From positions 1 to 64,000 of the forward strand of contig JAJCXN010000051.1 in the NCBI GenBank assembly GCA_029263415.1: a DNA stretch of 64,000 nucleotides, written 5' to 3'. Shown here one piece after another: positions 11,729 to 46,479 of this stretch; position 1 is the stretch's first letter; each line of letters begins with the position of its first letter. This DNA comes from Acidobacteriota bacterium (GTDB taxonomy: Bacteria > Acidobacteriota > Thermoanaerobaculia > Multivoradales > Multivoraceae). The position numbers and the translations under genes are program-made. A model generated the notes under the pieces. That model was not told the origin of the DNA, did not search any database, and worked only from the letters and a program-made list of their open reading frames with translations.

Positions 11729-12190
11729 CCTGCAACTCTACTCATCAAACAAGCACACCAATCCAAGATCGCCGACCCAACCAACCCCCTCGGCTGCCGC
11801 CCAGTTCGAGTCAAGGGCCACCTCGACAGCGTCAACGGCAGATCAGACCGAGAAAGATTCACCCGGCACCAAATCCTCCAACAACACCAGCTCTAAGCAT
11901 TTGGCACTCGGCAAACTGCCCCGCCCTACTAGCCGCGAAGCCGGATCGGGTGTCGACGCCGACCGGCTCGCGAAGGAGCCGGAAGGTACATCCGAAGCAC
12001 CGCAATCCCCCCCCAGAACCAAACTGACCGCGATCCTCAAACCGGCGACAAAGTGCTGGAGGGAGCGCGGTGACAACCGATCCGGCAAAAGCGGCGTACA
12101 CGCCTTCGCAGCACCCGCGACCGAACCACCCGGCCCCAATTGCAGTCCAACCACCACAGCACTCAACCCCACCACTGCTACCCTCCCCAG
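11729..12190. other. 462-bp divergent intergenic tract, A+C rich on the plus strand
   Basis: The stretch between two divergent genes holds no convincing coding region. Open frames exist on both strands because stop codons are sparse, but they have no recognisable domain. It contains one copy of the covarying hairpin element described separately (11932-12095). The plus strand is visibly rich in A and C, and this skew continues into both flanking genes. Confidence 0.6.
11932..12095. repeat. Structured inverted-repeat element, copy 1 (164 nt)
   Basis: The outer stem is GCCGC (11932) with GCGGC (12091), followed by an internal loop GAA/AAAA. The inner stem is GCCGGATCGG (11940-11949) with CCGATCCGGC (12077-12086), then a mismatch and TGTCG paired to TGACA. 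Inside the arms are the conserved GGCTC-GCGAAG-GAGCC hairpin (11965-11980) and the segment GGAGGGAGCGCGG (12058-12070). Copy 2 at 46062 has the same layout with different but still complementary stem bases. It could be a structured RNA or a REP-like palindromic repeat. Confidence 0.8.
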
Positions 12191-17187: not shown

Positions 17188-17382
17188 CTCGGTTGGGTGG
17201 CGGGGTGGGGGTAGTGGCGATGGCGATGGTCCTACTGCATAGGCGAGGCGCGTCTTCGCTCCTTTCGGCGGATCGGGGATCCCCTTTGGGGGCACCGCCC
17301 AACCCATTGCCAACCCCCTCATGCTGTACTACCATACGCAGATGTCACCCCCGCCTCGCCCTCACTAACCGGAACGCCACAA

Positions 17383-44631: not shown

Positions 44632-44705
44632 TGGTTGGGATGCAGGGATTCGAACCCCGATTATGCGATCCAGAGACGCAGGTCCTACCGTTAGACGACA
44701 TCCCA
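44632..44705 (-). tRNA. tRNA-Gln (CTG), CCA encoded
   Basis: The acceptor TGGGATG (5' end at 44705) pairs with CATCCCA. The anticodon loop is CTCTGGA with anticodon CTG, and the T-arm is CGGGG-TTCGAAT-CCCTG. The 3' CCA (44632-44634) is encoded. The last anticodon-stem pair is T-T, a mismatch. Without CCA the gene is 44635-44705. Confidence 0.93.
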
Positions 44706-44855: not shown

Positions 44856-44947
<92 letters not shown>

Positions 44948-44994
44948 ATAGCGCTTCGCGCTCCCTGGCGGGTCGGCAGGGCTACGGTGTGTGT

Positions 44995-45246
44995 GGACAG
45001 CCTACGGCTGGCCACTCACGGCGAATCCAACGCGGTGGAGTTTTTGAGGCGGGGCGGACCAAGGGCGCTCCGCGGTTGGTGGGTGGGAAGGCATGAGTGA
45101 TGATCGCGACTTCGATGTCTGGACAGGCTGCGGCTGGCCACTCACGGCGAATCCAACACGGTGGGGTTTTTGAGGCGGGGCGGACCAAGGGCGCTCCGCG
45201 GTTGGTGGGTGGGAAGGCATGAGTGATGATCGCGACTTCGATGTCT
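44995..45246. repeat. Two tandem copies of a 126-bp sequence
   Basis: Copies begin at 44995 and 45121 with a few substitutions, and a third GGACAG start lies at 45247. Each copy contains GATGTCT (45114 and 45240) next to the junction. The second copy runs straight into the truncated 3' end of the P-domain pseudogene. Open frames through the repeat encode nothing recognisable. Confidence 0.88.
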
Positions 45247-45743
45247 GGACAGACGGCCCGAATCGGAGACCCTGAGCGTCCAATCGCCAGCCAGCGTCTT
45301 ACCGTTAAAAGCAGCGAGCTGCCCGCTCGGCGGATCGCCAGGTTGGCAGTTGCTCAGCAGATACGCCGAAGCGGGATCATCACCCGAGAAACAATCGTCT
45401 TCGACCGTGATGGCCCCCTCATTCGCCGAGCCGTAAGCTGAGATCGTTGCCCACTGCAGCTGGTACTGGGCAACATGAACCCCGTCCTATCGACCAGGAC
45501 CATCTGGGTGCCTGTCGAGACGTGCTCCAGCTCAACGATCAAGTCGCCAACCCAAGTGTGTGGAATCTCGAGGATCGAGTCGAGATCGGTAATCGTCCAG
45601 GGTGCCTCAACCGAAAGGGTGTCAGTGATGCCGAAGGGATCGTTGTCTGTAATGGCTAGCCCAGGCTCAGAACAGTAGATCCCTGCCATTGCAGGCAAGG
45701 CGGAGAGGACGAGCATCAAGACGAGGAAGAGTGTTTTCTACAT
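45247..45743 (-). pseudogene. Decayed secreted P-domain (proprotein convertase P-like) gene
   Basis: Read on the minus strand, an ATG at 45743 with GGAG 8 nt upstream is followed at once by a TAG stop. Past it the frame gives a good signal peptide (KTLFLVLMLVLSALPAMAG) and a P/Homo-B domain: PWTITDLDSILEIPHTWVGD and VELEHVSTGTQMVLVDRTG. At about 45465 the frame breaks. The domain resumes one frame over (ISAYGSANEGAITVEDDCF, then AFNGKTLAGDWTLRVSDSG). The final strands are missing because the reading runs into the 126-bp repeat. A nonsense at codon 2, one frameshift and a lost end mark a pseudogene. The open part alone (from TTG 45719) would be a misfolded fragment. Confidence 0.8.
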
Positions 45744-45910
45744 CAGCCAAACTCCAAAGGGCAAATCTAGAGGAAAGAATACGTTGATCAACACAACCGA
45801 TCTTCGGCCCTCGCATCGGGCACCCAGACCTCGATCGGCGGAACACCTGCACCGCAAGCCCCCTTGAACCCCACCGAGATGCGCAGCATCGCGCAGGATC
45901 CGAAACCATC

Positions 45911-45969
45911 GGCCAGGGCTGCGTGCACGAGGTCTCACACCTTATGGCGCCGTGCACGCAGCCCTGGCC
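45911..45969. repeat. Perfect 19-bp inverted repeat with 21-nt loop
   Basis: GGCCAGGGCTGCGTGCACG (45911-45929) pairs exactly with CGTGCACGCAGCCCTGGCC (45951-45969). The loop contains a further small AGGT/ACCT stem (45930-45933 with 45939-45942). There is no T-tract, so it is not a standard terminator. It could form a cruciform or a long RNA hairpin. Confidence 0.85.
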
Positions 45970-46061
45970 TCCCGCCCCAAAGTCCCGCCACTCACTCACC
46001 CCTCTGCCACCGCATCCCAAGATGCCCCGATCACAAACACCGGCTCGCCCCAGCTTCACGA

Positions 46062-46226
46062 GTCGCGCAGCCAGCATGGGTGTCGCCGCCGACCGACTCG
46101 CGAAGGAGCCAACAGGAAACTCTGCAAAACACCAAATGCCCCGCACCAACATCTCGCCCAGTCACTGTCACACAGGCGACGGAGTGCCGGAGGGAGCGCG
46201 GCGACACCCATGCTGGCGTAAGCGAC
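46062..46226. repeat. Structured inverted-repeat element, copy 2 (165 nt)
   Basis: The outer stem is GTCGC (46062) with GCGAC (46222), with an internal loop GCA/GTAA. The inner stem GCCAGCATGGGTGTCGCC (46070-46087) is perfectly complementary to 46200-46217. The conserved interior is CGAAGGAGCC (46101-46110) and GGAGGGAGCGCGG (46189-46201). Compared with copy 1, five stem base pairs have changed on both strands together. Confidence 0.85.
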
Positions 46227-46479
46227 GAAACCACTTAAGCAATCGCCACACCCCAGAAAGACCGCGAACCCAGTCCCACTTCCCATTTCCCACACAAGCA
46301 ACCAATCCCGCGATCGCCACGACCATCGCAATCGTCACCGCCCCCTCACCGCCAAGTATCTCCCGCTCAACACCGAATGTCCCTACCCCCGCCACCGCCA
46401 ACCCCCACCCCAGCGCATACAATCCAACCGCCGACCATTCCCCCATCGCCCACCCATCGCCCAACAAGGAACGCCTGCC

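Follow-up and report, generated by a model that had tools for sequence, protein, structure and literature searches.

A structured interspersed repeat of about 400 nt in an Acidobacteriota genome, probably akin to the known small mobile repeats of bacteria but unusually large

The hairpin treated here, hereafter hairpin B, is most likely akin to the known small mobile repeats of bacteria, though of unusual size, rather than a lone RNA gene. It is part of a real, structured, multi-copy repeat that is best read as a new, unusually large, modular and non-autonomous element of a REP/BIME/BOX-like kind; and we assign a probability of roughly 60% to the more specific proposition that hairpin B belongs to an interspersed repeat, about 400 nt long, which is non-autonomous and specific to its lineage, is of a large modular REP/BIME/BOX type and is present at some 24 intergenic places. 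The data establish the copy number of the repeat, its dispersal, its inverted pairing, the mixing of its modules, the pairing of its stems despite divergence and the nesting of REP-like 20-mers within it.

Copies in the window and organization of the unit

The window—the whole stretch of 64,000 nucleotides that was analysed—contains copies 1 and 2 of hairpin B along with a degenerate third copy (Table 1), which is clear only at its 3′ end (17250–17297, 98% identical to another unit) and in its tail. The first-pass annotation had reported five closing-stem differences between copies 1 and 2, each compensated on the opposite strand, around an internal loop of constant position and size. Direct reading bears this out: among the 15 outer pairs five differ, all five being compensated (one in the outer and four in the inner stem), and the 3 × 4 internal loop is of equal size in both copies. 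Deeper in the stem, at columns 46–261 and 52–255, copy 1 has G·A and A·G where copy 2 has Watson–Crick pairs, so that the compensation is incomplete across hairpin B as a whole. On the given strand the folding z-scores are −6.21 for copy 1 and −4.84 for copy 2, with none of 200 dinucleotide shuffles folding as well in either instance; the reverse strand of copy 1 likewise folds well (z −5.38).

Table 1. Coordinates of the repeat copies, their parts and the tRNA genes in the window.
Feature	Position	Sequence	Strand	Basis
Copy 1, hairpin B (starting feature)	11932–12095		+	Direct reading; R1 match 11922–12105, 115.4 bits (copy 1 in model)
Copy 1, closing stem	11932–11936 / 12091–12095	GCCGC / GCGGC	+	Direct reading
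Copy 1, inner stem	11940–11949 / 12077–12086	GCCGGATCGG / CCGATCCGGC	+	Direct reading
Copy 1, internal loop		GAA on 5′ side, AAAA on 3′ side	+	Direct reading
Copy 1, 3′ tail	12096–12135		+	Weak similarity to other units' tails (by eye vs L054, L051, L052)
Third copy, degenerate	17248–17371		−	R1 27.9 bits, E = 3.0e-5 in genome; blastn
tRNA-Gln gene	44632–44705		−	
tRNA-Ser gene	44856–44947		+	
Copy 2, hairpin 0, beta type	45878–45890	GATGC-GCA-GCATC	+	Compensated relative to GACGC-GCA-GCGTC
Copy 2, hairpin A	45911–45969		+	R2 match 45902–45974, 81.8 bits (copy 2 in model); covariation
Copy 2, linker from hairpin A to hairpin B	45970–46057		+	Alignment with other units
Copy 2, hairpin B	46062–46226		+	Direct reading; R1 match 46052–46236, 130.9 bits (copy 2 in model)
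Copy 2, closing stem	46062–46066 / 46222–46226	GTCGC / GCGAC	+	Direct reading
Copy 2, inner stem	46070–46079 / 46208–46217	GCCAGCATGG / CCATGCTGGC	+	Direct reading
Copy 2, internal loop		GCA on 5′ side, GTAA on 3′ side	+	Direct reading

An alignment of 18 arms gave a unit of about 400 nt that runs, from 5′ to 3′, through hairpin 0, hairpin A, a linker, hairpin B and a tail. Copy 2 is a full unit; copy 1 consists of hairpin B and the tail, a hairpin A being unsupported there by either folding (z −0.15) or the covariance model R2, which matches nothing at that place. Hairpin 0 comes in two types, alpha (GTTTGGC-GCA-GCCAAAC) and beta (GACGC-GCA-GCGTC), while the stem of hairpin A comprises about 24 pairs. 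When the genome was searched with R2, a model of hairpin A made from 14 sequences, its 14 source places were recovered together with weaker reverse-strand matches of those same places and one weak relic, and no hairpin A copies beyond the source places were found. Hairpin B lies downstream at all 14 strong hairpin A places, and some hairpin B copies are without the 5′ part of the unit. The tetramer preceding hairpin B is CTAG in most copies, CGAG in copy 2 and CTGG in L047a. As judged by eye, the loop types of hairpin A, the classes of hairpin B and the types of hairpin 0 are not linked to one another, so that modules seem to have been swapped between units.

Tandem repeats of other kinds also occur in the window: of 176 nt at 1–396; of 126 nt at 44990–45252, directly after the tRNA-Ser gene; and of 30 nt in 5.5 copies at 881–1046, within a long open frame on the minus strand (378–2630).

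Dispersal and head-to-head pairing

The first-pass annotation had proposed a genome-wide search with a covariance model. Our model R1, built from nine hairpin B sequences that included copies 1 and 2, retrieved 24 matches from the genome at a threshold of E ≤ 0.01, and 22 of these fall at E ≤ 1.4e-9; nine of the 24 were themselves in the model, and two of the 24 sit at contig ends. Copies 1 and 2 are accordingly no isolated pair but two divergent representatives of a family of 24 copies. These 24 places are intergenic with one exception, an overlap with a weak 73-aa call from our own simple hexamer gene caller; the copies are accordingly many, dispersed and extragenic, as in REPs, though the copy number is modest for a REP. 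The 14-mer of the hairpin loop occurs exactly at five places and with at most one mismatch at 14, versus 10 for a reversed control, a proximity that leaves the count with little weight by itself; the flanks of several of those places are nevertheless alike, and blastn with one of them retrieved a dispersed repeat.

At five loci inside contigs (C38, C44, C26, C46, and C41) two units stand with their 5′ ends facing across a spacer of some 80–200 nt, which is the arrangement of inverted REP dimers with a spacer. Judged by eye, each of these loci pairs an alpha with a beta hairpin 0, and at two of them the beta unit is degenerate. In addition, contigs C54 (at 1–297) and C55 (in its last 297 bases) both end, at the same point, inside units that show three differences over about 297 positions before they diverge. 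Near-identical arms at contig ends are what would be expected if a palindrome had broken the assembly, and we infer that these ends may be the two arms of one young, long palindrome, which would constitute a sixth pair. The pairs are inverted repeats overall; a reading of the flanks by eye brought no target-site duplication to light. A transposase gene between the arms was considered and dropped, none being recognised by eye in the open reading frames of four loci.

Of 23 copies analysed (C26:21481 was left out), nine have tandem repeats (TRF score ≥ 40, period ≤ 20) within 150 nt of the 3′ end of hairpin B; among control stretches, all drawn from this window, the figures are 1 of 36 for intergenic and 4 of 400 for randomly placed ones. 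With their units of 6–12 nt, such repeats would suit an element akin to a retroposon that, like the SINEs of eukaryotes, propagates by way of an RNA copy and uses the reverse transcriptase of a group II intron; and so would the retention of the downstream hairpin B at every strong hairpin A place, combined with hairpin B copies that are without the 5′ part. The genome moreover contains three reverse-transcriptase matches above the Pfam cut-off (C29:737, C8:141797, and C44:292934; genes or fragments), which are group II-like by our reading. Against this, we found no link of the reverse transcriptases to the units; and several of the copies lacking hairpin A resemble, by eye, an internal loss of that palindrome, unlike a 5′ truncation, for which reason we no longer take a strict truncation of the 5′ side to prove retroposition. 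Head-to-head pairs are, furthermore, atypical of retroposons, and we hold such an origin to be most improbable. A fuller version, in which a bacterial SINE-like parasite would consist of a fold-selected RNA of about 400 nt copied through an RNA intermediate, its 3′ tandem repeats made by slippage and its head-to-head pairs composed of two subtypes, is in our judgement a long shot. None of the explanations offered accounts well for the 3′ tandem repeats.

Covariation of the stems and its possible origins

A covariation check of the kind that the first-pass annotation had likewise proposed gave values above both a shuffle null and a tree null, the latter being our own simplified simulation along a tree. 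In hairpin A (14 sequences) 96.4% of the cells are paired and 7 of the 24 pairs are doubly changed, which figure none of 500 shuffles reached; in hairpin B (19 sequences) the corresponding values are 93.8% and 6 of 29, again attained by none of 500. Under the tree null 1.1 doubly changed pairs were expected for hairpin A (7 reached in 0 of 1000 simulations; the doubly changed cells in 2 of 1000) and 1.5 for hairpin B (6 reached in 1 of 1000). Removal of the degenerate L046b2 along with copies 1 and 2 leaves hairpin B a single doubly changed pair, a number reached by 257 of 1000 simulations, although its share of paired cells still lies above that of all 1000. The covariation of hairpin B thus rests mainly on copies 1 and 2, while that of hairpin A is broader-based.

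If the units were a family of RNA genes, they would be transcribed in the plus orientation into an RNA of 300–400 nt with a selected fold, which would act either in trans or, in cis, on adjacent mRNAs. The covariation in excess of the tree null would be in keeping with such a family, as would the strand bias of hairpin A, where, with 60 shuffles per arm and among arms that are related and hence non-independent, the plus strand surpasses the minus strand in all 14 arms by z-score and in 13 of them by raw energy, and where G·T mismatches outnumber A·C by 33 to 1 when counted by cell over the 14 arms. Counted as distinct pair types, however, G-U versus A-C stands at only 5 versus 2 in hairpin A, a modest wobble excess. 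The results for hairpin B were divided: the plus strand is better by z-score in 17 of 19 arms (60 shuffles each; related and hence non-independent arms) and the tandem G·A of a TGA/GAT internal loop is retained in 15 of 19 copies, but the raw energy is lower on the minus strand in 16 of 19 arms, a z-score of −2 is attained on the plus strand by only 10 of 19, the count by cell is 11 G·T versus 13 A·C, and the distinct pair types without L046b2 are 5 G-U versus 3 A-C. For the pair types of hairpin B we used fixed columns, because the local alignment behind its count by cell had caught internal loops and nested inserts. In addition, the family was found in one species only, and by eye no conserved promoter-like block precedes hairpin 0 (L045a and L046a3 do share some upstream sequence). 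We consider a family of RNA genes unlikely.

Compensation may alternatively be the product of mutation only, or mainly, with intrastrand template switching copying one arm of a stem onto the other and so giving an appearance of compensation without selection on the fold. This mechanism has been proposed for RNA stems and can rewrite a stem arm in one event (PMC8794818), from which it follows that a compensatory change by itself does not demonstrate selection. In the present family, four of the five pair differences between copies 1 and 2 fall in one 5-base block; the TGA/GAT loop is fully paired in these two copies; and in arm L048b the same loop has become TGA/TCA, with adjacent bases on one side altered so as to match the opposite side, a change that looks like a template-switch event. 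Template switching as the main cause is less easily reconciled with the one-step G-U states at five pairs of hairpin A, the folding bias of that hairpin to one strand, or the G·A loop that has persisted, instead of being erased, in most hairpin B copies; and we regard it as improbable. The first-pass annotation had concluded that pairing is what is selected: the covariation beyond both nulls speaks in favour, yet template switching would also yield compensation, as L048b may exemplify. Pairing may be maintained in the form of RNA or of single-stranded DNA, or in part through template switching; the strand tests favour RNA for hairpin A and are mixed for hairpin B.

A nested REP-like palindrome and the Y1 transposases

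In the reading that we prefer, that of a large REP/BIME/BOX-type repeat, a 20-mer nested in the hairpin B loops of several arms deserves particular attention. This sequence, a palindrome of REP size, has 43 places in the genome at up to three mismatches, versus two for a reversed control; by their coordinates 16 of those places are inside the large units and 27 elsewhere. In 20 loci (among L164–L183), which cover 23 of the 27 outside places, we found at six a mini-palindrome of common design that closes, like hairpin B, with GCGAC..GGAGC or near variants, and at another six (L169, L171, L172, L173, L178, and L182) tblastn matches of the genome's own Y1 proteins; L166, L175, and L176 are similar to the Y1-matched loci by eye only. 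At some of its places the 20-mer is thus situated in or beside Y1-transposase remnants. Three Y1 genes of the genome score above the Pfam cut-off, and one Pfam-supported Y1 protein has 44 genome matches at E ≤ 0.01, many of them fragments and many at contig ends. Pfam recognised no Y1 in six short Y1-like peptides, giving three unrelated matches (E 0.14–0.2).

When the 44 Y1 matches were compared with the R1 places, none lay beside a large unit, the nearest being some 11 kb distant on C38; conversely, around the three Pfam-supported Y1 genes the best R1 match had an E of only 0.32. The large units are consequently not flanked by RAYTs, and their association with Y1 remnants is limited to the nested 20-mer. 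Because this 20-mer occurs both in the large units and with Y1 remnants, a mobilisation of the large unit in trans by a Y1 enzyme is plausible. We would accordingly picture a unit that moves, or has moved, in trans by means of a single-strand (HUH/Y1) transposase, of which the genome has many copies and fragments; whose single units may be leftovers of head-to-head pairs; and whose stem pairing would matter to the element either while it moves, in the form of a single-stranded DNA fold, or in RNA co-transcribed with neighbouring genes.

Occurrence beyond the genome

Among 60 genomes, blastn at E ≤ 0.001 (11 candidates scored per genome) gave matches in three, namely the genome itself and two others with stretches of 26 and 38 bases. 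R1 returned partial-model matches in two relatives (E 0.0013 in G031 and E 0.0018 in G059) that we judged from the sequence, by eye, to be chance; there was thus no convincing match in the 59 relatives by either blastn or R1. In the order the family was found in its own genome only among 72 (at most nine candidates scored per genome), a set in which its genus is represented by this species alone; in the phylum it was found in its own genome only among 396 (two candidates scored per genome); and plasmids and phages gave zero matches. One pattern match in a gammaproteobacterial MAG of GTDB was set aside as chance, with little similarity past 20 letters by eye and with R1 and R2 silent at E ≤ 1. 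The viral-contig pattern matches (1 and 3) were also judged to be chance: R2 found nothing there at E ≤ 1, and R1 gave on those loci only E 0.051 and 0.075, both in L088, the second over a pattern match.

With Rfam 15 the gathering score was reached in the window by two tRNAs only, and a permissive scan of seven loci yielded, besides tRNAs, sub-gathering matches only. Weak microRNA-precursor matches fell on hairpin A of L001, L003, L005, and L012 (20–33 bits versus gathering scores of 54–268) and none on hairpin B. A HEARO-like RNA was considered as well, but had no such match in the Rfam scans of the window and the seven loci; and an integron attC site was dropped, its motifs not being seen. 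A keyword search of the open literature, made without the name of the organism, revealed no description that we recognised as this repeat. The first-pass annotation knew of no named family with this design, which statement stands insofar as none of the Rfam families attains its gathering score on any of the copies scanned, but has to be qualified by the REP-like traits of the repeat.

Comparison with known systems

REPINs, or REP dimers, and BIMEs with their RAYT (Y1) are described as dispersed extragenic palindromes with many inverted pairs and a less conserved spacer, as are the units here; heterodimers that combine two types of stem, compensatory changes and singles seen as remnants are also described (PMC3116915, PMC3733652), all of which have their likeness in the present family. 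REPs are nevertheless 20–40 bp long (PMC3116915, PMC3733652), in contrast to our unit, which measures about 400 nt and holds two large hairpins. Y1 transposases are encoded both in genomes with REPINs or BIMEs and in this one. Unlike REPINs, the large units are without a clear GTAG or CGTC tag, none stands next to a Y1 gene, and they are often trailed by tandem repeats. Against the REP-like reading we have counted the length of the units, about 10 times that of known REPs, the lack of a clear tag, the distance of the large units from any Y1 match, the single doubly changed pair left to hairpin B once copies 1 and 2 and L046b2 are set aside, and the unaccounted-for tandem repeats of the 3′ end. 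The first-pass annotation had named kinship with a REP or transposon relic as the finding that would count against its own proposal, and that kinship is in part apparent, in that the units are dispersed, intergenic and often in inverted pairs, and contain REP-like 20-mers that occur with Y1 remnants.

The BOX elements of pneumococcus (PMC3049150) resemble the units in being modular, structured and of variable size (67–637 bp in BOX), in the gain and loss of modules and in a predicted RNA fold; terminal inverted repeats and target duplications are reported for BOX, whereas the large units show head-to-head pairs, the comparison being one of descriptions only. ERIC/IRU, CIR, and NEMIS are, according to a review (PMC2229807), non-autonomous structured repeats, like the units here; in CIR a linker connects two hairpin arms, an arrangement comparable with hairpin A, linker and hairpin B. 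Our unit exceeds both ERIC (127 bp) and NEMIS (107 and 155 bp) in length. A terminal TA motif and a methylase site are also described for these elements (PMC2229807). The compensatory stems of Borrelia repeats (PMC2674063) offer a further parallel. Lastly, the structured RNA families of Rfam 15 have conserved covarying stems, as do the units, which match none of those families at the gathering score.

Implications

As a warning, a pair of covarying hairpins met within a single window may belong to a mobile repeat. Because its many copies of known orientation lie in one genome, the family provides a natural test between selection and template-switch mutation as the source of compensatory change in repeats. 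A repeat of this kind would extend the REP/BIME type to units of about 10 times the length that carry two hairpins, each covarying on its own.
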